The notes below the pieces were generated by a model, which did no database searches, was not told the DNA's origin, and saw nothing but the letters and a program-made list of their open reading frames with translations. A DNA stretch of 64,000 nucleotides, from assembly GCA_019637225.1 (NCBI GenBank), contig JAHBWC010000041.1, forward strand, positions 1 to 64,000. Reading direction: 5' to 3'. This DNA is from Labilithrix sp. (GTDB lineage Bacteria; Myxococcota_A; Polyangia; Polyangiales; Polyangiaceae). This document shows positions 39,779 through 49,571 of the stretch, in pieces (positions within the stretch are counted from its first letter, which is position 1; each line of letters starts with the position of its first letter). Made by a program: the position numbers and the translations under genes.

Positions 39779-40679
39779 GGCGCGCGCGCCGCGTCCCGCC
39801 AACCTGCTCGTCCACGGCGACGCCAAGGACCTCGGCGCCTTCGTCGCCGCCGGCAGCGCCGACCTCGCCTACCTCGATCCGCCCTTCAAGGTGGAGAAGG
39901 CGTTCGGGGCGCGCTTGACCCGCGGCGCGTCGCGCGCGCGCGGGCCGATCGCCTACGACGACACGTGGCCGTCGCTCGAGGCCTACCTCGCGTGGCTCGA
40001 GGAGCGCCTCGCCGTCGTCCGTGAAGCGCTCTCGCCGCGAGGGACGATGTGGCTCCACCTCGATCAGCGCGCCGTCCACGAGGCGAAGGGCGTCTGCGAT
40101 CGCGTGTTCGGCGCGCGGCGCTTCCGGGGCGAGGTCGTGTGGGTGCCGGGCAACGGGAGCAAGAGCAAGACCGGCCCCGGCATGAGCCACCAGACGCTCC
40201 TGCTCTACGCGCGCGGGCCCGATCCGATCTGGAACGGCAAGGACCCTTCCCTCCGTGCGCCCTTCGCGGCGACGAGCCTCGACTTCCACTTCAAGAGCGT
40301 CGACGCCGACGGACGGCGGTACCGCGATCGCGTCGTCGGCGACAAGACCTACCGCTACTACGCCGACGAGGGGCGCGCGCTCGGGAGCGTGTGGACCGAC
40401 TGCCCGTCGATGGCCGCGAACACGCCGCTCCGCGCGGAGACGACGGGCTACCCGACGCAGAAGCCGCTGAAGCTCCTCGATCGCATCGTCCGCGCGACGA
40501 GCGACATCGGCTCGCTCGTCGTCGATCCGTTCTGCGGCTCGGGGACGACGCTGGTGGCCGCGGCGGCGATCGATCGCCGCTTTGCCGGCTGTGACGTCGG
40601 CGAGCTCGCGATCCAGACCTCGCAGCGCCGCCTCGACGCCGGCGGAATCGCGTACCGCGCGCGCCGAGCGACGCCGTGA
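39753..40679 (+). CDS. Orphan site-specific DNA methyltransferase (amino-group, beta-type)
   Basis: 308 aa. The catalytic motif is DPPF (residues 42-45, YLDPPFKVEKAF) near the N-terminus and the AdoMet motif DPFCGSGTTLVAAAAIDR near the C-terminus. That order (IV before I) marks the beta class of N6-adenine/N4-cytosine methyltransferases. YPTQKPLKLLDRIVRAT is also typical. DPPF rather than SPP(Y/W) favours N6-adenine, but target base is not certain. No restriction endonuclease gene is adjacent, so it is an orphan enzyme, possibly regulatory. The start lies inside the mepA-like gene. Confidence 0.85.
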   Translation: MRAPQRSAEARAPRPANLLVHGDAKDLGAFVAAGSADLAYLDPPFKVEKAFGARLTRGASRARGPIAYDDTWPSLEAYLAWLEERLAVVREALSPRGTMWLHLDQRAVHEAKGVCDRVFGARRFRGEVVWVPGNGSKSKTGPGMSHQTLLLYARGPDPIWNGKDPSLRAPFAATSLDFHFKSVDADGRRYRDRVVGDKTYRYYADEGRALGSVWTDCPSMAANTPLRAETTGYPTQKPLKLLDRIVRATSDIGSLVVDPFCGSGTTLVAAAAIDRRFAGCDVGELAIQTSQRRLDAGGIAYRARRATP

Positions 40680-40786
40680 CGATCGGTCGACGCAAAGGAG
40701 GCTCGACCGAAGGGACGTCGGGCGAGCAGGCCGGCGCCGAGGAGGATCCGGCGGAGGCGCGTGGGCCGTGCGACACTGGCCCGGCG

Positions 40787-41365
40787 ATGTCCGACGCGCC
40801 TCCTCCTCAGCTGTTCCCGCTCTTTCTTCGCCTCGCGGGCAAGGACGTCCTCGTCGTCGGCGCGGGCGCAGTCGCCGAGCGCAAGATCCAGGACCTCGTC
40901 GAGAGCGGCGCCGCCGTGCGGGTGGTCGCGCTCACGGCGACCGCCGCCGTGGAGAGGCTCGCGGCGGACGGCGCGATCGCGCTCTCGCGCCGCGCGTTCG
41001 ACGAGTCCGACGTCGACGGGGCGTGGCTCGTCGTCGCCGCCACGACCGATCCGGCGGTGCAGGCACGCGCGTGCTCCCGCGCCGCAGCGGGGCGCGTGCT
41101 CGCGCTCGCCGTCGACGATCCGCCGAACGGCTCCGCCTACTCCGCGAGCGTCATCCGCCGTGGCCCCTTCACGATCGCGATCTCGTCGTCGGGAGAGGCC
41201 CCCGCCCTGTCGCGCCTTCTCCGCGAGGTGCTCGAGCAAGCGCTCCCGGCGGACGACTGGATCGAGGCCGCGCGCGCGCTCCGCGAGCGCTGGCGCCGCG
41301 ACGGCGCCCCGATGGCCTCGCGCTTCGCCGACCTCGTGCGCGCCTTCAAGGCGCGGGCCGACTGA
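40787..41365 (+). CDS. Precorrin-2 dehydrogenase / siroheme-synthase N-terminal domain protein
   Basis: 192 aa from the ATG at 40787; an in-frame ATG at 40676 would add a low-complexity, non-family extension. The NAD-binding motif is VVGAGAVAERKIQDLVESGAAVRVVA, the start typical of CysG-B/Met8/SirC. WLVVAATTDPAVQARACSRA and YSASVIRRGPFTIAISSSGEAPALSRLLREVLE complete the fold. It oxidises precorrin-2 to sirohydrochlorin for siroheme. With the uroporphyrinogen methyltransferase at 42205 it supplies the cofactor for the sulfite reductase at 46100. Whether it also chelates iron is not known. Confidence 0.88.
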   Translation: MSDAPPPQLFPLFLRLAGKDVLVVGAGAVAERKIQDLVESGAAVRVVALTATAAVERLAADGAIALSRRAFDESDVDGAWLVVAATTDPAVQARACSRAAAGRVLALAVDDPPNGSAYSASVIRRGPFTIAISSSGEAPALSRLLREVLEQALPADDWIEAARALRERWRRDGAPMASRFADLVRAFKARAD

Positions 41366-42204: not shown

Positions 42205-43026
42205 TCAACCGCGCCGGACGTGGCGGAGCGGGCGCGGCGGCGCGATCGCCGCCGGCGCCGACGGCGCGACGCGACGCGCGACGACCTCTCCGACGATGAC
42301 GAGCGCCGGCGTCGGCAGGTCCGCCGCCGCGACCGCGTCGGCGATCGTCGCGAGGTCCGCGACCACCTCCCGCTGATCGGGGAGCGTCGCGCGCGACACG
42401 ACGGCGACCGGCGTGCTCGGCGCGCGGCCGTCCTCGACGAGGCGACGCGCCGTCTCGCGCAGCGTCGCGATGCCCATGTACAGGACGACCGTGCCCTCGG
42501 GCGGCACACGCCGCGCGAGCGACTCGACCTCGTGCTCGCCGGTCCCGGCGCGGCCGCGGAGGTGCGCGGTCGCGAACGTCACGCTCGACGCCGCGTCGCG
42601 ATGCGTGAGCGGGATCCCCGCGCTCGCCGCGGCGCCGAGCGCGGCGCTGACGCCCGGCACCACCTCGAACGGGATCCTGAGCGCCGCGAGCTCGGCGGCC
42701 TCCTCGCCTCCTCGCCCGAAGATCATCGGATCGCCGCCCTTGAGGCGAACGACGTCGAGTCCGGCGAGCGCCCGCTCGAGCACGGTCGGATGGATCGACG
42801 GCGCGTTCGGGCATGTGCCCCTCCGCCGCCCGACGGCGATCCGCTCTGCCTCCGGCGGGATCAAGGCGAGGATCTCCGATCCGACGAGCTCGTCGTACGC
42901 GACGACGCGCGCGCCGGTCAGGATCCGATGGGCGCGCAGCGTGAGGAGCTCGGGATCGCCGGGCCCGGCTCCGACGAGGAAGACCCGCCCGCGCGGGGCG
43001 CTCCGGGCGATCGCTCCGTCGATCAC
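42205..43026 (-). CDS. cobA: Uroporphyrinogen-III C-methyltransferase
   Basis: 273 aa from a GTG at 43026 that overlaps the permease stop (GTGA). The tetrapyrrole-methylase signatures are VFLVGAGPGDPELLTLRAHRIL at the N-terminus and DVVRLKGGDPMIFGRGGEE. Also FEVVPGVSAALGAAASAGIPLTHR and VVLYMGIA. It makes precorrin-2 from uroporphyrinogen III with two SAM, feeding siroheme. Being the third gene of the ABC-transporter operon links it to sulfite reductase cofactor supply rather than to cobalamin. Confidence 0.92.
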   Translation of the reverse strand: MIDGAIARSAPRGRVFLVGAGPGDPELLTLRAHRILTGARVVAYDELVGSEILALIPPEAERIAVGRRRGTCPNAPSIHPTVLERALAGLDVVRLKGGDPMIFGRGGEEAAELAALRIPFEVVPGVSAALGAAASAGIPLTHRDAASSVTFATAHLRGRAGTGEHEVESLARRVPPEGTVVLYMGIATLRETARRLVEDGRAPSTPVAVVSRATLPDQREVVADLATIADAVAAADLPTPALVIVGEVVARRVAPSAPAAIAPPRPLRHVRRG

Positions 43027-43775
43027 GGCACAGCCGTCCCCCAGCGGCGCGCGACGAGGCGCTCGACCGGACCGAAGAGGACGCGCTCGCTCGCCCGGCT
43101 GAGCAGGACGATGACGACGACGACGCCGAGGACGAGCGCCGTGTCGGCGAGATCGCGCCCGGTCTCGAGGAGCTGGCCGAGGCCGCCGGAGACGAACAAG
43201 AGCTCGCCCGCCATCAGCGAGCGGAGCGCGAAGGTGAAGCCCATCTTGGCGCCCGTCACGATTCCGGGCAGCGCCGCCGCCAAAAGGACGCGGAAGAGCA
43301 GCGTCGGGCCCGTCGCGCCCATCGTGCGCGCCGCGCGCTCGATCGTCGGGGGGAGCTGGCGCACCGCGCTCTCGGTCGCGAGCGTCACGGGGAGCGCCGC
43401 GCCGAGGACGATGACGACCTGGATCGCTGCCTCGGAGAGCCCGAACCACACGATGGCGAGCGGCAGCCAGCAGATCGACGGGACGCTCGAGAGACCGAGG
43501 AGGAGCGGGCCGAGAGCGCGCTTGACGGAGGGCACCCGCGCGAGCACGAGCCCGAGCGGGACGCCGATCGCCAGGGCGATCGCGTAGCCGACCACGAGCC
43601 GGATCGCGCTGACGAGCACCGCCCGCCCGAGGGTGCCCTGGGCCGTCGCGCTCGCGAGCGCGCGGGCGACCTCGATCGGTCCAGGGAAGAGCGTGCTCTT
43701 CGCCGCTTCAGATGCCGCGGCCCAGATGGCGACGAGGATCGCCGCCGTCAGGCCCGCTCGAGCTACCCCACGCAC
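43023..43775 (-). CDS. ABC transporter permease, sulfonate/nitrate/taurine family
   Basis: 250 aa with six membrane segments. Conserved coupling region: ERAARTMGATGPTLLFRVLLAAALPGIVTGAKMGFTFA (EAA loop, SsuC/TauC/NrtB type). The family start SAIRLVVGYAIALAIGVPLGLVLARV is present. With the ATPase upstream and the substrate-binding protein at 48579 it makes a complete importer, placed in a sulfur locus. Sulfate-ester or sulfonate import is inferred; sulfate is possible. The start lies 68 bp inside the ATPase gene, an unusually long overlap; a later start (e.g. within the first hydrophobic stretch) is possible. Confidence 0.85.
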   Translation of the reverse strand: MRGVARAGLTAAILVAIWAAASEAAKSTLFPGPIEVARALASATAQGTLGRAVLVSAIRLVVGYAIALAIGVPLGLVLARVPSVKRALGPLLLGLSSVPSICWLPLAIVWFGLSEAAIQVVIVLGAALPVTLATESAVRQLPPTIERAARTMGATGPTLLFRVLLAAALPGIVTGAKMGFTFALRSLMAGELLFVSGGLGQLLETGRDLADTALVLGVVVVIVLLSRASERVLFGPVERLVARRWGTAVP

Positions 43776-44685
43776 CGTCCGCCTCCTCTCGCGCCACCTT
43801 GTCGACCTCGGCCCGGATCTCGTCGGCGATCCGCTGCGCGATGCGGACGGCCTGCACGTCTTCGACGCTCGCGCCGCCGAGCGCCGTACGCGTCCCGCCG
43901 AGCGCTCCGCGCCTCGGGCGCGGCAAGTCCACGTGGACCTCGCCGATCACGCGGCCCGGCCGCGTCCCGATCAGGACGACGCGGTCGCCGAGACGGACCG
44001 CCTCGTCGATCGCGTGCGTGACGAACACCATCGTCGTGCGCGACGCGCGGACGATGCGCTCGACCTCGCCCTGGAGGAGCTCGCGCATCTGCCCGTCGAG
44101 CGCGGCGAACGGCTCGTCGAACAGGATCATCCGCGGGCGCGTCGCGAGCGCCCTCGCGATCGCACCGCGCTGGCGCATTCCCCCCGAGAGCTCGTGGGGG
44201 AACGAAGCGCGGAAGCGTGACAGGTGGACCAGCCGGAGCAGCTCGTCGACGCGCTCGGCGCGCGCGGCCGGCGCGACGCCCGCGACCTCGAGGGGGAACG
44301 CGATGTTCTTCTCCAGCGTGAGCCACGGAAAGAGCGCCGCGTCCTGGAAGACGACGGCGCGCTCCGGCCCCGGGCCGCTCACGGGCACGCCGTCGAAGAG
44401 CACGCGACCCCGCGTCGGTCGCACGAGACCGGCGAGCAGGTTCAGTATCGTGGATTTTCCTCCGCCCGACGGACCGACCAGGCAGAGCGCCTCGCCGGGC
44501 GCGACGTCGATCGAGACGTCCTCGAGGACCGTGGCGCCGTCGTACTCGAGGCTCACGCCCTCGAGCGCTGCGCTCGCTCCGGCGGCGCCAGGCGCCGGTC
44601 TCCGCTCCACGGCGCGCGCGGCGGGCGCCGCCGCGGGCTCGGGCTCCGCGAGGGCCGCCCCGATCCACTTCGTGGTCGCGAACAC
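43708..44685 (-). CDS. ABC transporter ATP-binding protein, sulfonate/nitrate/taurine family
   Basis: 325 aa from the GTG at 44685. Walker [10 protein letters not shown] (71-79), Q-loop [23 protein letters not shown], signature [16 protein letters not shown], Walker [14 protein letters not shown]-loop [10 protein letters not shown]. This Q-loop region is typical of SsuB/TauB/NrtD. About 38 Ala/Pro-rich residues precede the ATPase domain. The C-terminus extends ~60 residues past the core and overlaps the permease gene. The GTG lies 7 nt downstream of a TATGAT -10, so the mRNA may be leaderless. First gene of ABC operon. Confidence 0.87.
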
Positions 44686-44691
44686 GCGTTC

Positions 44692-44720
44692 ATCATAGTA
44701 GACAAACGCGTCCTCGACAA
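44692..44720 (-). promoter_or_regulatory. Promoter with shared motif upstream of the ABC operon
   Basis: Minus strand: -35-like TTGTCG (44720-44715), 17-bp spacer, -10-like TATGAT (44697-44692). The bases TTGTCTACTATGATG (44705-44691) match TGTCTACTATAATG at 45420-45407 with one difference. The predicted start point falls at the ATPase GTG (44685). A site for the adjacent XRE-cupin regulator is inferred. Confidence 0.6.
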
Positions 44721-44735
44721 GGGCGACGGCCCCGC

Positions 44736-45410
44736 TCAGCGCTCGTAGAGGATCACGTTGTGGTAGCGGGCCTCGGAGGAGCCGGCGTTCTCGTAGGCGT
44801 GCGGCCGGTCGGCCGGGAACGCGACGCTGTCGCCCGCCATCAGGTCGAGCTGCTCGCCCTCGACGTGGAGCCTCAGCGATCCCGACAGCACGACGAGGAA
44901 CTCGTGGGTGCCGGGGGCGTGAGGCTCCGAGGTGTGCGTCGCGCGCGCCGACAGACGCAGCTCGTACATCTCGACGAGCGCCGACGCGCCGGCCGGCGTG
45001 AGCGGGCGGCTCTCGAGCTTGCCGTCGAGCGAGCGCAGCACCTGGGCGTCGCCCCGCCGGAGCACGCTGATGCCCGTCCTCGGCTGCCCGAGCAGGTCGG
45101 CGAACGGGACGCCGAGACCGACGGCGATCTTCCAGAGGAGGCCCACCGTGGGGTTCGTCTTGCACGTCTCGACCTGCGACAGCGCGGCGCGGCTCACGCC
45201 GGACGCCCGCGCGAGATCGTCGAGCGACATCCCGCGGAGCTTCCGCTTGTGGCGCAGGTTCTCGGCCACCCGGCGAGCGAGCTCTGCCGCTCCGACGTCG
45301 TCCCCAAGCGCGACCGCGCCGCGCTCCGGCGCGGCGGCCCCCTTCGCGGAAGCGTTCTCCTTCGACGATCGTCCCAGATTGCGCTTGCGTCCCGCCACCG
45401 TTCTCTCCAT
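44736..45410 (-). CDS. XRE-family regulator with C-terminal cupin domain
   Basis: 224 aa from ATG 45410 (a GTG at 45422 or one at 45398 are alternatives; a TATAAT overlaps this start, which favours the downstream GTG). Residues ~48-108 are an XRE helix-turn-helix ([33 protein letters not shown]). Residues ~145-222 form a cupin ([49 protein letters not shown]). XRE-cupin proteins such as E. coli SutR (YdcN) control sulfur use; others control polyamines or betaine. Its place between the cysC operon and the ABC operon makes a sulfur regulator likely. The effector of the cupin is unknown. Confidence 0.87.
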
Positions 45411-45421
45411 TATAGTAGACA
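45407..45421. promoter_or_regulatory. Shared motif in the 21-bp regulator/cysC divergent gap
   Basis: Minus strand TGTCTACTATAATGG, with TATAAT at 45414-45409 for the regulator; on the plus strand the same bases read TATAGTAGACA, with a TATAGT at 45411-45416 that could serve cysC. The gap between the annotated starts is 21 bp, so the element must overlap the promoter or start codons of both genes. The second copy lies at 44691-44704. Confidence 0.6.
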
Positions 45422-45431
45422 CGTGCTTGCT

Positions 45432-46031
45432 ATGACGAACTCATCCAGCAGGGCCACGGTAACACGACCCGATCGAGGCGTCGTCGTGTGGTTCACCGGC
45501 CTCTCCGGAGCCGGCAAGACGACGATCGCGAGCGCCGTCGCCTCCGAGCTCGTCGCGGCCGGCAAGCGCGTCGAGGTCCTCGACGGCGACGTCGTGCGGA
45601 CGCACCTGTCGAAGGGCCTCGGGTTCTCGCGCGAGGACCGGGACATCAACGTGGCGCGGATCGCGTTCGTCGCCCACCTGCTCGCGCGCAACGGCGTCTT
45701 CGTCCTCGTGGCCGCGGTCTCGCCCTACCGGCAGACGCGCGAAGCGGCGCGCGCCACGATCGGCGACTTCGTCGAGGTCCACGTCGCGCCTCCGCTCGAC
45801 GCGTGCGTCGCGCGCGACACCAAGGGCCTCTACAAGAAGGCGCTCGCCGGGGAGATCCCGCAGTTCACCGGCGTGAGCGACCCGTACGAGGAGCCGATCG
45901 ATCCGGAGCTCACGCTCGACACGAGCGCGATCGACGTCGCCACCGGCGTCGAGCGCGTCCTCGCGAAGCTCGTCGAGCTCCGCTTCCTCGAGCGCGAACG
46001 CGCCCCCTCCGAGGCTCGCAGCCGCGCCTGA
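45432..46031 (+). CDS. cysC: Adenylylsulfate kinase
   Basis: 199 aa from the ATG at 45432; longer upstream frames run antisense through the regulator. P-loop [37 protein letters not shown] is the APS-binding motif. [14 protein letters not shown] and [24 protein letters not shown] complete the family. It phosphorylates APS to PAPS. The next genes encode sulfite reductase and a [4Fe-4S] CysH that uses APS, so PAPS may serve sulfotransferases instead. The ATP sulfurylase genes are not in the window. Confidence 0.93.
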
Positions 46032-46099: not shown

Positions 46100-47848
46100 A
46101 TGACCACCAGCACCCTGCCGCGCTTCTCCGACCCACGCGACGTCGACGAGTTCGTCGCCAAGCTCGAGGGCTTCGAGCGCGGCGAGATCGGCCCCGACGA
46201 GTTCCGGGCGTTCCGGCTCGTCCGCGGCGTCTACGGCCAGCGCCAAGAGGGCCGGCAGATGATCCGGGTCAAGATCCCGTTCGGGCGGCTCGACGACGTC
46301 GGCCTCGAGGCGCTCGCCGACGTCGCCGACCGCTGGTCGCGCGGCTTCGGACACGTCACGACCCGCCAGAACGTGCAGCTCCACTTCGTCGACATGGCGA
46401 ACGTCGAGGCGCTGATGCACCGCCTCGACGAGGCCGGGCTCACGACGCGCGAGGCCTGCGGCAACTCCGTCCGCTCGGTCACGGCGTGCGAGCTCGCCGA
46501 GGTGTGCGCGAGCGCGCCGTTCGACGCGACGCCGTACGCCGAGGCGGTCACGCGCCAGTTCCTCCGGCACCCGCTCGCGGCGAGCCTGCCGCGCAAATTC
46601 AAGATCGCCTTCAGCGGGTGCGCGAACGACTGCGCGAAGGCGGCCATCCACGACCTCGGCTTCATCGCCGAGGTCCGCGAAGGCCAGAAGGGCTTCCGCG
46701 TCGTCGCCGGCGGCGGCCTGTCGTCGTCGCCGAGGAACGCCCTCGTCCTGCACGACTGGGCGCACGCGTCGGAGATCGGCCGGATCGGCGAGGCGATCGT
46801 CCGGCTCTTTCACCGGCTCGGCAACCGCGACAACCGCGCCCGCGCGCGGATGAAGTACGTCCTCAAGAAGCTCGGCGACGACGGCTTCCGCGCCAAGTAC
46901 GCCGAGATCCGCGCGGAGGTCGACGCCGAGGCCGCGGGCGAGCTCACCCTCCCCGTCCCGTACGCCGGCACGCCGGCGGCGCCCGTGCTGAGCGACGCCG
47001 ACGCCCGGCGGACGCCCGCGTACCTGGCGTGGCGCGCAGCCTCCGTCGTGGCGCAGAAGGCGGACCCAGAAGCTCCGTCCGACGGCGCGTCCGACGACGG
47101 CTACGTCGCCGTCTACGTGCGGCTCTTGCTCGGCGACATCACGAGCGCGCAGATGCGCGCCCTCGGGAAGATCGCCCGCGAGCTCGGCGACGGCACCGTC
47201 CGCCTCACGATCGATCAGAACATCCTCGTCCCCTGGATCGACAAGCGGTCGCTCCCCGCCCTCTTCGCGCGCCTCTCCGCCGTCGAGCTCGCGCGGCTCG
47301 ATCTCCACACCGCGCGCGACGTGACGAGCTGCCAGGGCGCCGACACGTGCAACCTCGCCGTCACGTCGTCGCGCGCCGTCGCGAAGGCGATCGGGGACAA
47401 GCTCGAGGCCGAGGGGATCGGCGCCGAGGGAGACGCCGCGAGGACGCTCATCAAGGTCAGCGGGTGCCCGAACTCGTGCGGGCAGCACCACATCGCCGAC
47501 CTCGGCTTCCACGGCGGCGCGAAGACCGTCGCCGGCCAGGCCGTCCCGGTCTACCAGCTTCACCTCGGCGGAGGCGTCGACGCTCGCGGCGCGCGCTTCG
47601 GCCGCCAGGTCGTGAAGATCGTCGCGCGGCGCGTCCCGGACGCGGTCGTCGCGCTCCTCCGGCTCTACGACGCCGAGCGCGCCGCCGACGAGACGCCGGC
47701 CGCGTTCTTCGAGCGCGTCGACGGCAAGCGCGTCGTCGCGGCGCTCGGAGACCTCGTCACCGCGCCTCCGCGCGACGACGAGGGCGCGGACGTCGGCGAG
47801 ACGTCCGGCTTCCTCGTCCAGACCGGCGCCGGGGAGTGTGCTGCGTGA
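46100..47848 (+). CDS. Siroheme [4Fe-4S] sulfite/nitrite reductase
   Basis: 582 aa. C-terminal half has the siroheme/[4Fe-4S] cysteines: TSCQGADTCNLA (C411, C417) and VSGCPNSCGQHH (C456, C460). The N-terminal half also has RQNVQLHFVD and GNSVRSVTAC. Length is near ferredoxin-dependent NirA/Sir; no flavoprotein gene is adjacent. Oddly the N-half keeps matching Cys (C120, C130; C174, C178 in SGCANDC) where plant-type enzymes have none. The sulfur neighbourhood favours sulfite over nitrite. It reduces sulfite to sulfide by six electrons. Stop overlaps cysH start (GTGA). Confidence 0.88.
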   Translation: MTTSTLPRFSDPRDVDEFVAKLEGFERGEIGPDEFRAFRLVRGVYGQRQEGRQMIRVKIPFGRLDDVGLEALADVADRWSRGFGHVTTRQNVQLHFVDMANVEALMHRLDEAGLTTREACGNSVRSVTACELAEVCASAPFDATPYAEAVTRQFLRHPLAASLPRKFKIAFSGCANDCAKAAIHDLGFIAEVREGQKGFRVVAGGGLSSSPRNALVLHDWAHASEIGRIGEAIVRLFHRLGNRDNRARARMKYVLKKLGDDGFRAKYAEIRAEVDAEAAGELTLPVPYAGTPAAPVLSDADARRTPAYLAWRAASVVAQKADPEAPSDGASDDGYVAVYVRLLLGDITSAQMRALGKIARELGDGTVRLTIDQNILVPWIDKRSLPALFARLSAVELARLDLHTARDVTSCQGADTCNLAVTSSRAVAKAIGDKLEAEGIGAEGDAARTLIKVSGCPNSCGQHHIADLGFHGGAKTVAGQAVPVYQLHLGGGVDARGARFGRQVVKIVARRVPDAVVALLRLYDAERAADETPAAFFERVDGKRVVAALGDLVTAPPRDDEGADVGETSGFLVQTGAGECAA

Positions 47849-48582
47849 ACGCGGAGCGCGGCGACAGGGAGGCGTCGGAGCTCGACGCCGACCTCGCGCT
47901 CGCCAGCGCGCGCCTCGAGCGCGCGACGCCCGCCGAGCGCCTCGCCTTCGCCGTCGAGCGGTTCGGCGACGATCTCCTCTTCACGTCGTCGTTCGGCGCG
48001 CAGAGCGGCGTCCTCCTCCACCTGTGGAGCGAGGTCGCCCGGGGCCTGCCCGTCGTCTTCATCGACACGGGCTTTCTCTTCGCCGAGACGCTCGCCTACC
48101 GCGACGCCCTCGCGGACAAGCTCGGGCTCACCGTCCGCGTGCTCCGCCCGGAAATCCCGAACGCCGAGTTCGTCGCGCGCTGGGGCGACGACGTCCAGGC
48201 GCGCGATCCGGACTTCTGCTGCGGCCTCAACAAGGTCCTTCCGCTCGCGCCGCTCCGCGACGCGGCCCGCGCCTGGGTCTCGGGTCTCCGGCGCGATCAG
48301 AGCCGCGCGCGCGAGGGCGTTGGGATCCTCGAGCGCGACGGTCACCTCGTGCGCGTGCACCCGCTCGCGACCCTCACGAAGGCCGACGTCGCGCGCTACC
48401 TCGCCGACCACGGCATCCCCGAGCATCCGCTCGTCGCGAGGCGCTACCTCTCGATCGGCTGCGCGCCCTGTACGCGCGCAGTCGCCGACGGCGAGGACGA
48501 GCGCGCGGGCCGCTGGGCGTGGTCGAACAAGACCGAGTGCGGCCTCCACGCGCGGCCGCCCGGACACGAGCCGGGGCGATGA
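47845..48582 (+). CDS. cysH: [4Fe-4S]-type adenylylsulfate (APS) reductase
   Basis: 245 aa, GTG start overlapping the reductase stop. The CysH core is LLFTSSFGAQSGVLLHLW (PP-loop) and VVFIDTGFLFAETLAYRD. Cluster Cys are in DFCCGLNKVLPL and SIGCAPCTRAV, and ECGLH carries the catalytic Cys. The CC...CxxC set marks the APS-using, cluster-binding form rather than the PAPS-specific E. coli form. It makes sulfite and AMP from APS. The sequence places it in assimilation together with the sulfite reductase upstream. It overlaps the substrate-binding protein gene (ATGA). Confidence 0.92.
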   Translation: MNAERGDREASELDADLALASARLERATPAERLAFAVERFGDDLLFTSSFGAQSGVLLHLWSEVARGLPVVFIDTGFLFAETLAYRDALADKLGLTVRVLRPEIPNAEFVARWGDDVQARDPDFCCGLNKVLPLAPLRDAARAWVSGLRRDQSRAREGVGILERDGHLVRVHPLATLTKADVARYLADHGIPEHPLVARRYLSIGCAPCTRAVADGEDERAGRWAWSNKTECGLHARPPGHEPGR

Positions 48583-49571
48583 CGATCGCGATCGGGCGGC
48601 GCGCGCTCCTCGGCGGGCTCGCCGGCGCCGTCGCGGCCGGCGCCGCCGTGAGCGCCGTCGCCCGTCGCCGCTCGAGCGGCGAGCGCGTCTTCCGCGTGGG
48701 CGTCATGTCGAACCTCACGCACGCGCCCATGCTCGCGGGCCTCGGCTCCGGCCGCATCGCGCTGGCCCTCGCGCCGGCGCGCGTCGAGACGCGCGTCTTC
48801 CGCGCGGGCCCGCGCGTGACCGAGGCGCTCATCGGCGGCGCCATCGAGGCCGGCACGGCCGGCCCCGCCGCCGTCGTCGTGCACCACGCGCGGCACGCGC
48901 GCGGCGGGAGAGGAGGCCTCCGCGTGCTCTCCGGCGCGTGCTCCGGCGGCGCGTCGCTCATCGTCACCCGAGCGAGCGGGATCGCGCGCGCCGCCGATCT
49001 CCGCGGCAAGCGCCTCGCGGTCACGCAGATCGGCACCACGCAGGACGTCGCGCTCCGCTCGTTCCTCCGCGACGCGGGGCTCCGCGAAGCCGCGGCCGGA
49101 GGAGACGTCACGGTCCTCGCGATCGCGGGCGCGACGATCCTCGAGCAGATGAGGCGCGGCGATCTCCACGGCGCCTGGCTCCCCGAGCCGTGGGCGACGC
49201 GGATCGTCGGCGACCTCTCGGCCGTGCGCCTCGTCGACGAGCGCGACCTCTGGCCGGGCCGGCGCTTCGCCACCGCGGTGCTCACGACGCGCGCGGCGGA
49301 CGCCGCCGACCCGCTCATGGTCCGCCTCTCGCGCGCGCTCGACGACGAGGTGGCCCGCGCGCTCGACGATCCGCGGGCGACGCTCGCGGAGGCGCACGCC
49401 GAGCTGACGCGGCACGTCGGCAACCCCGGCGCGTTCGGCGTGTTCGAGGAGGCGGCGCGTTTCGTGGACTTCACGGCGGATCCGCTCCGCGCGTCGATCG
49501 AGCGCTTCGGCGACGCCGCGGCCGCCCTCGGGCTCTGCCCGCCGCGGCCCTCGGACGGCCTGTTCGCCTGA
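48579..49571 (+). CDS. ABC transporter substrate-binding protein (Tat-type signal)
   Basis: 330 aa, ATGA overlap with cysH. The N-terminus TIAIGRRALLGGLAGAVAAGA is a twin-arginine signal. The body is NMT1/SsuA-like: VGVMSNLTHAPMLAGLGSG, ETRVFRAGPRVTEALIGGAIEAGTAGPAA, SLIVTRASGIARAADLRGKRLAVTQIGTTQDVALR and GDLHGAWLPEPWATRIV. It presumably serves the ATPase and permease encoded on the opposite strand. The ligand is a sulfur oxyanion or organosulfonate by context. TatB/TatC are encoded at 20995-22652. Confidence 0.88.
   Translation: MTIAIGRRALLGGLAGAVAAGAAVSAVARRRSSGERVFRVGVMSNLTHAPMLAGLGSGRIALALAPARVETRVFRAGPRVTEALIGGAIEAGTAGPAAVVVHHARHARGGRGGLRVLSGACSGGASLIVTRASGIARAADLRGKRLAVTQIGTTQDVALRSFLRDAGLREAAAGGDVTVLAIAGATILEQMRRGDLHGAWLPEPWATRIVGDLSAVRLVDERDLWPGRRFATAVLTTRAADAADPLMVRLSRALDDEVARALDDPRATLAEAHAELTRHVGNPGAFGVFEEAARFVDFTADPLRASIERFGDAAAALGLCPPRPSDGLFA

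Follow-up and report, generated by a model that had tools for sequence, protein, structure and literature searches.

The DNA analysed here, referred to as the window, is a stretch of 64,000 nucleotides from Labilithrix sp. (contig JAHBWC010000041.1, positions 1 to 64,000). It contains a SutR-like regulator gene of the XRE (HTH_3) and Cupin_2 type at 44736..45398 on the minus strand. Behind the regulator an operon on the same strand encodes an ABC transporter ATPase (43708..44685), an ABC permease (43023..43775) and the uroporphyrinogen-III C-methyltransferase of siroheme synthesis (cobA / cysG C-terminal, 42205..43026). The methyltransferase passes its NCBIfam cut-off. The ATPase resembles SsuB, TauB, NtrD and SaoA and the permease resembles SsuC, TauC and SaoP, with all NCBIfam models below cut-off for both. 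The divergent operon on the plus strand consists of cysC for adenylylsulfate kinase (45432..46031), sir for a nitrite/sulfite reductase hemoprotein (46100..47848), cysH for phosphoadenylylsulfate reductase (47839..48582) and a gene for an SsuA-like substrate-binding protein (48579..49571). CysC and CysH pass the cut-offs, the reductase passes in Pfam with its NCBIfam models below cut-off, and the binding protein stays below the NCBIfam cut-off. Sulfite reductase uses siroheme. A gene of the siroheme synthase N-terminal type (TIGR01470, above cut-off) is found at 40676-41365 on the plus strand.

The likely start codon of the regulator gene is GTG 45398, with ATG 45410 and GTG 45422 as alternatives. 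GTG 45398 appears the likelier one because a Shine-Dalgarno-like GGAG[A/G] is seen by eye 4-5 nt before this start, here and in close relatives. With this start the gap to the ATG of the divergent cysC (45432) measures 33 bp; ATG 45410 is the start behind a gap of 21 bp. The deduced protein carries an N-terminal XRE/HTH_3 domain (50.7 bits) and a C-terminal Cupin_2 domain (55.9 bits), both above the Pfam cut-off, and shares this arrangement with the SutR family. Its predicted structure shows helices at residues 45-111 and strands at 150-225 (mean pLDDT 72.5, moderate confidence). Among the NCBIfam models PRK08154 matched best, followed by PuuR, both below cut-off, and no SutR model was among the matches. 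Since a LysR domain is absent among the Pfam matches, the protein is not assigned to the CysB/Cbl (LysR-type) regulators. The cupin residues H168, E174 and H208 (228-aa numbering) are invariant in an alignment of 11 sequences and make a plausible metal triad for a cupin.

A preliminary description of this DNA had reported a word that occurs twice on the minus strand around the regulator. The first copy, TTGTCTACTATGATG, was found exactly as described at 44705-44691, where the ABC-cobA operon begins. The second copy, TGTCTACTATAATG, is also present, at 45421-45408 and thereby one base off the reported 45420-45407. It lies between the regulator and cysC, as had been said, but not wholly inside the 21-bp gap to which it had been assigned, for it covers ATG 45410. 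The -10-like hexamers noted for the copies, TATGAT or TATAAT, were found as well. Beyond this earlier reading, both repeated words proved to be parts of a 14-bp palindrome with the half-sites TYYRYTA and TARYRRA, located at 44689-44702 and 45406-45419, so that the regulator gene (44736..45398) is indeed placed between the two. Putative operator 1 (44689..44702, minus strand) is the imperfect palindrome TCTACTATGATGAA with 1 mismatch at the start of the ABC-permease-cobA operon. Putative operator 2 (45406..45419, without strand assignment) reads TCCATTATAGTAGA, or TCTACTATAATGGA on the minus strand, and shows 0 mismatches to the consensus TYYRYTATARYRRA. It lies between the divergent regulator and cysC genes, and the site is conserved upstream of orthologues.

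The repetition was compared with shuffled sequences. With up to 3 mismatches TGTCTACTATRATG matched the window twice, both times exactly, against 0.32 expected (sd 0.53), and 3 of 100 shuffles reached this count. The two palindromes are the only window sites within 1 mismatch of TYYRYTATARYRRA, with 0.025 expected from 40 dinucleotide shuffles; with up to 2 mismatches 4 window sites were found against 1.3 expected from dinucleotide shuffles. Near the siroheme synthase gene the window scan revealed no operator-like site with up to 2 mismatches. The own genome (8.2 Mb, 83% complete) contains 3 exact copies of the word, among them the two of the window, and 0 of its backward control. The third exact copy is located on contig C137, 17 bp upstream of a rhodanese gene, which possesses a second, more symmetric copy approximately 60 bp from the exact one. 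A chance recurrence of the word was rejected on the basis of the shuffles, the backward control of the own genome and the order-wide densities given below.

Conservation of the motif beside orthologues of the regulator was looked for and found. The DNA upstream of 60 regulator orthologues of the order was aligned together with that of the window, giving 61 loci. Orthologue grade was a chosen cut-off of bits >=187, to which G119 was added; it yielded 63 matches including the window's own, and 60 of the 62 others were used, with G015, G163 and the partial G119 left out. The alignment shows the repeated word to be a portion of the palindrome. A first consensus, TYYAYTATARTRRA, matched 13 of the 61 regulator loci within 1 mismatch and the wider consensus TYYRYTATARYRRA matched 23, each compared with 0.05 expected from shuffling. 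Within 2 mismatches of TYYRYTATARYRRA the count rose to 34/61 versus 0.55 expected, and 27/61 loci had no palindrome at this level. In close relatives the palindrome is seen by eye at a fixed spot directly 5' of the GTG, TTG or ATG start of the regulator, with a GGAGG-like sequence 4-5 nt ahead of this start. A Walker A motif follows the regulator in 25 loci, and the region from the regulator stop to this motif was searched for a site at the ABC gene. Such a site was present within 1 mismatch in 9 and within 2 mismatches in 16 of the 25 loci (counts without shuffle baseline), and within 1 mismatch in all 7 same-genus loci with an ABC gene, the window included. Perfect palindromes exist, for instance TCCACTATAGTGGA at locus L058 and TCCGTTATAACGGA on contig C134 of the own genome. 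One contig, L213 (JAHBZF010000030.1), is labelled Pseudolabrys sp. and encodes a regulator 77% identical to that of the window, as does a Labilithrix MAG with a similar isolate code (L214); L213 is probably misbinned.

The two sites coincide with presumed expression signals. A putative -10 element, TATGAT (44692..44697, minus strand), lies inside operator 1 at 17 bp from a putative -35 element, TTGTCG (44715..44720, minus strand), and the GTG start of the ABC gene follows 6 nt later, which would make the transcript near-leaderless. Among 20 loci listed for the ABC gene, 11 have a TTGnnn element at 16-17 bp from the -10, counted at the most favourable of three spacings and without shuffle baseline. 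At the regulator gene GGAG directly follows TATAAT, which suggests that its transcript either starts further upstream or is nearly leaderless. Either way, operator 2 comes to lie over the promoter or the first codons of the regulator.

The motif was also encountered upstream of sulfur genes in related genomes, namely rhodanese, rhodanese-MoeB and cysD genes and a porin/sulfate-binding-protein operon. When 34 genomes were scanned with TYYAYTATRRTRRA, 39 rows representing 23 distinct sites came from 13 of them, compared with 8 rows for the backward control. Of the 23 genomes that have an orthologue 12 contained a site, of the 10 that lack it none did, and a further site-bearing genome was G005 (72% complete, no orthologue found). 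Eighteen of the 23 distinct sites belong to the regulator, to the ABC gene behind it or to a clear sulfur gene; 2 stand at weaker candidates and 3 at none. When the 10 sites at the regulator, the ABC gene and the own contig C137 are subtracted, 8 of 13 stand at a clear sulfur gene, 2 at weak ones and 3 at none. The clear cases are cysD in G127 and G042, rhodanese-MoeB in G001 and G083, rhodanese in G003 and G004 (two sites), and the porin and sulfate-binding-protein operon in G037. The weaker ones are an ExtH-like lipoprotein of G006, below the family cut-offs, and, in G005, a TauD-superfamily gene that comes nearest to the models for trimethylaminoethylphosphonate and gamma-butyrobetaine dioxygenases, likewise below cut-off. 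No evident sulfur gene was found at the sites G042:C26, G037:C19:70133 and G150. By eye, the flank of the second of these (locus L137) resembles that of the sulfate-operon site 10.7 kb away; it is near a kdpABC-like cluster and looks like a duplicated control region.

Profile R1 was made from 31 sites and trained on sites from most of the genomes later searched with it. Every one of 8 same-genus genomes gave between 2 and 9 rows, and G002, G008 and G010, all without orthologue, gave 0. The profile revealed additional sites at the ABC gene of G003 and at genes for a PspE-like rhodanese (G009), a DUF2325 protein (G006), a TauD-superfamily protein and a fatty-acid desaturase (both G004), and a secreted protein that is uncharacterised (G003, G009, G005). 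G082 has a perfect site that stops 5 bp short of the start of the same TauD-superfamily gene. Genes for DUF2325 proteins adjoin the operator in three genomes (L009:5513-5893, L137:4104-4448 and L234:1532-1834), where they are located behind a rhodanese gene, divergent from the porin/sulfate-binding operon, or alone. The uncharacterised secreted protein has about 420 aa (L245:1500-2771, L226, L239 and L258:658-1905), and the L245 copy is without Pfam match. In L245 and L226 a GTG immediately before the operator could serve as the start of its frame; at the corresponding place L258 has a 2-mismatch version of the operator.

For two gene families, sites were counted according to whether the genome has an orthologue of the regulator. 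A site within 1 mismatch was present at rhodanese-MoeB in 13 of 22 genomes with orthologue (10 of them perfect) and in 0 of 7 without, G005 (perfect) being set aside; this count is not blind, as TYYRYTATARYRRA had been widened after the rhodanese-MoeB sites were known. Within 2 mismatches the numbers were 14/22 versus 1/7 for rhodanese-MoeB (Fisher 0.031) and 15/23 versus 0/4 for cysD genes (Fisher 0.028), and since the genomes are related, both tests overstate independence. At 8/22 rhodanese-MoeB and 8/23 cysD genes of genomes with orthologue no site within 2 mismatches was observed. In the own genome rhodanese-MoeB has the perfect site TCCGTTATAACGGA and cysD carries TTCGTTATCGTGAA with 1 mismatch. 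Sulfate-binding-protein genes showed no association within 300 bp upstream at up to 2 mismatches (1/6 with orthologue, 1/2 without); in the operon of G037 the site sits further upstream than 300 bp, before the porin gene. A 1-mismatch match in G002, a genome without orthologue, lies inside a coding frame and was taken as chance.

An order-wide scan for perfect sites covered 183 genomes, most of which had not been used in setting the consensus. The 62 genomes with an orthologue contained 102 perfect sites in 476 Mb (0.215/Mb), the 61 genomes with other XRE-cupin matches only contained 121 in 567 Mb (0.213/Mb), and the 60 genomes without XRE-cupin match contained 13 in 313 Mb (0.042/Mb). An orthologue thus goes along with a roughly fivefold higher density of the site, as compared with genomes in which no XRE-cupin relative was found. 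The backward control (21, 47 and 45 counts in the same order of groups) follows the opposite trend, with 0.044/Mb in genomes with orthologue and 0.144/Mb in those without XRE-cupin match. No perfect site was found in 27 of the 62 genomes with orthologue, including the same-genus G011, and 9 of the 60 genomes without XRE-cupin match carry one; among these is the same-genus G010, whose rhodanese-MoeB gene has a 2-mismatch site in addition. The equal density in genomes with the other clade means that the site tracks the XRE-cupin family rather than the clade of the regulator alone. On contig G096:C205, where two XRE-cupin genes reside, 8 perfect operator sites were counted among the matches listed (8298-36701).

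In view of the hexamers, the repeated word might be only a sigma70-like -10 element beside a Shine-Dalgarno sequence, so that the promoters look alike without any shared operator. TATAAT or TATGAT in each copy and the TTGnnn element in 11/20 ABC loci do render the word partly promoter-like. However, the conserved word reaches both arms of the dyad, which a -10 box does not require, perfect palindromes occur (L058 and the own contig C134), and a fivefold higher density in the presence of the regulator is unlike a common promoter element. A pure promoter repeat was rejected because the arms are kept and the presence of the site follows the regulator, and we consider this explanation very unlikely.

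More weight, though still on the unlikely side, is given to a binding of the sites wholly or partly by a paralogous XRE-cupin protein, which is encoded on contig C26 of the own genome and is about 44% identical to the regulator, or by both proteins. SutR of E. coli matches the regulator and this paralogue almost equally (103.7 and 101.6 bits), and the second XRE-cupin clade is equally enriched in sites (0.213/Mb), so that not every site need belong to the regulator of the window. Against the paralogue stands that in 4 of 9 paralogue loci the 400 bp preceding the HTH codons contain a palindrome of different centre, TCCGCTTTAGCGGA-like, and that the perfect TATA-centred site occurred in 0 of 9 in the same region. 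Moreover, the orthologue is the sole XRE-cupin match in G111 and G112, TTCAGTATAATGRA stands ahead of it there, and sites 1 and 2 of the window flank the regulator itself. An activating or dual function of the regulator at sulfur genes is doubtful. The RefSeq label of E. coli SutR is dual regulator, and some rhodanese-MoeB sites end 38-68 bp before the start codon, a possible activating position. In contrast, the site overlies or directly adjoins the presumed -10 element or the start codon of the ABC gene, of the regulator gene and of some rhodanese genes, a placement typical of repression. The geometry of the sites therefore favours a repressor.

The paralogues show features of their own. Those at L250, L252, L253 and L256 are preceded by the palindromes TCCGCTTTAGCGGA / TCCGTTTTAGCGGA, which have the arms of the operator but a different centre. 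Two paralogues, L255:3271-4221 (G007:C330) and L259:3377-4351 (G037:C52), are fusions of an N-terminal rhodanese domain with HTH_3 and Cupin_2, all three domains above the Pfam cut-offs. The fusions suggest that the signal may be sulfane sulfur.

The sites with their symmetry and conservation, the context of neighbouring genes and the kinship to SutR are seen in the sequence; from these we infer binding, repression and an effector in the following model. A dimer of the XRE-cupin regulator would bind the 14-bp palindrome via its HTH domain. Since the centre of the palindrome (TATARY/TATRRT) is placed on the -10 or start-codon region of many targets, its occupation by the protein would most likely prevent transcription. 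Operator 2 would control the regulator and cysC-sir-cysH-ssuA jointly, its palindromy allowing a single site to act on both divergent genes, and operator 1 would control the ABC-permease-cobA operon. A sulfur metabolite in the cupin pocket might tune the binding, with the genes opening during sulfur shortage. The wider regulon may include rhodanese, rhodanese-MoeB, cysDN, the porin/sulfate-binding-protein operon and the TauD-superfamily gene. The regulator is probably a SutR-family repressor that acts, in Labilithrix-like Polyangiales, on its own gene and on sulfur acquisition and assimilation, with an operator that overlaps the -10 region. The common control of regulator, importer and cysC-sir-cysH-ssuA proposed in the preliminary description gains support from the conservation of the site beside many orthologues and at the ABC gene, and from the same palindrome before other sulfur genes, and the sites before sulfur-uptake and sulfate-reduction genes of related soil bacteria suggest a common sulfur-supply switch.

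A further-reaching and rather improbable proposal is that sulfate assimilation of the Polyangiales in general would be governed by a SutR-type XRE-cupin repressor and not by a CysB-type activator, that one 14-bp site would serve as operator and as core of two divergent short-leader promoters, and that the signal would be sulfane sulfur (persulfide). The double role of the site is proposed because a -10-like element is present on both strands, and the persulfide signal because rhodaneses recur as targets and because in two genomes the paralogues carry a fused rhodanese domain.

A strict full-text literature search retrieved no paper on an XRE-cupin regulator of sulfate assimilation and none on a myxobacterial sulfate-assimilation regulon; a looser search matched some. 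The putative operator and its gene set make sulfur control in Polyangiales testable. Beyond the preliminary description, the sites were recognised as dyads, the regulator was related to SutR and a larger set of genes was found, and the poorly described DUF2325, ~420-aa secreted and TauD-superfamily dioxygenase proteins are tied to the same putative operator.

Among proteins of known structure the best PDB match of the regulator is the HTH_3-family protein 1y9q of Vibrio cholerae, by sequence (85 bits) as well as by fold (Foldseek E 7e-16). The overall domain arrangement of 1y9q differs (TM 0.36 by query length, moderate-confidence model). The cupin domain matches that of 6b8w with a TM of 0.84 by target length (predicted model). 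PuuR, the putrescine-related XRE-cupin protein of E. coli, has the same two-domain architecture by alignment across both parts, but it shares 23% identity with the regulator and its gene context is polyamine use. PuuR and SutR were the E. coli XRE-cupins compared, and the regulator is closer to SutR (117 bits) than to PuuR (50 bits).

SutR (YdcN) of E. coli K-12 has the same HTH and cupin architecture and is 37% identical over both domains. In the passages of PMC8464067 and PMC6094552 that refer to Yamamoto 2015, SutR is cited as a sulfur-utilization regulator, and in the former the ChIP-exo motif of YdcN is reported to be palindromic. The sutR gene is divergent from its neighbour ydcO, and its own upstream region has a palindrome with a CGTTATAACG core; the K-12 sutR-ydcO gap contains TCCGTTATAACGCA and TGCGTTATAGCGTA. 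This palindrome is nearly identical to that of the order. Both regulators thus share a TATA-centred palindrome upstream of their own gene (45406-45419 in the window), and the putative targets of the window regulator, as judged by gene context only, are sulfur-utilization genes. Eight further homologues were picked from a plasmid collection, out of 40 rows among 170 matching records, and their upstream regions were compared with the consensus of the order without shuffle baseline. Imperfect palindromes of the TGCGYTAT type precede the Vibrio, Alteromonas and Aeromonas homologues, with 2, 2 and 3 mismatches to this consensus, and that of Cupriavidus has TGCACTATAACGAA with 1 mismatch. The Peribacillus and Peptoclostridium homologues show 2-mismatch matches in AT-rich DNA, and the Peribacillus upstream region holds another, perfect palindrome as well. 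The motif is absent upstream of the Priestia (3 mismatches) and Microvirga (5 mismatches) homologues. With the SutR-type palindrome extended across phyla, a single binding motif may aid the annotation of SutR-family regulons.

The two regulators also differ. The arms of the palindrome are mostly TCY or TTC in Polyangiales and TCC/TGC in gammaproteobacteria. In the tree the clade of the window regulator is sister to the paralogue clade, and SutR groups with other gammaproteobacterial and Bacillota homologues (long branches flagged). Because SutR stands outside both clades, the regulator is a member of the SutR family and not an orthologue of SutR, and neither the tree nor the near-tie with the paralogue indicates a one-to-one relationship. 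The window regulator sits inside a cysC-sir-cysH / ABC cluster, with its putative operator before core assimilation genes.
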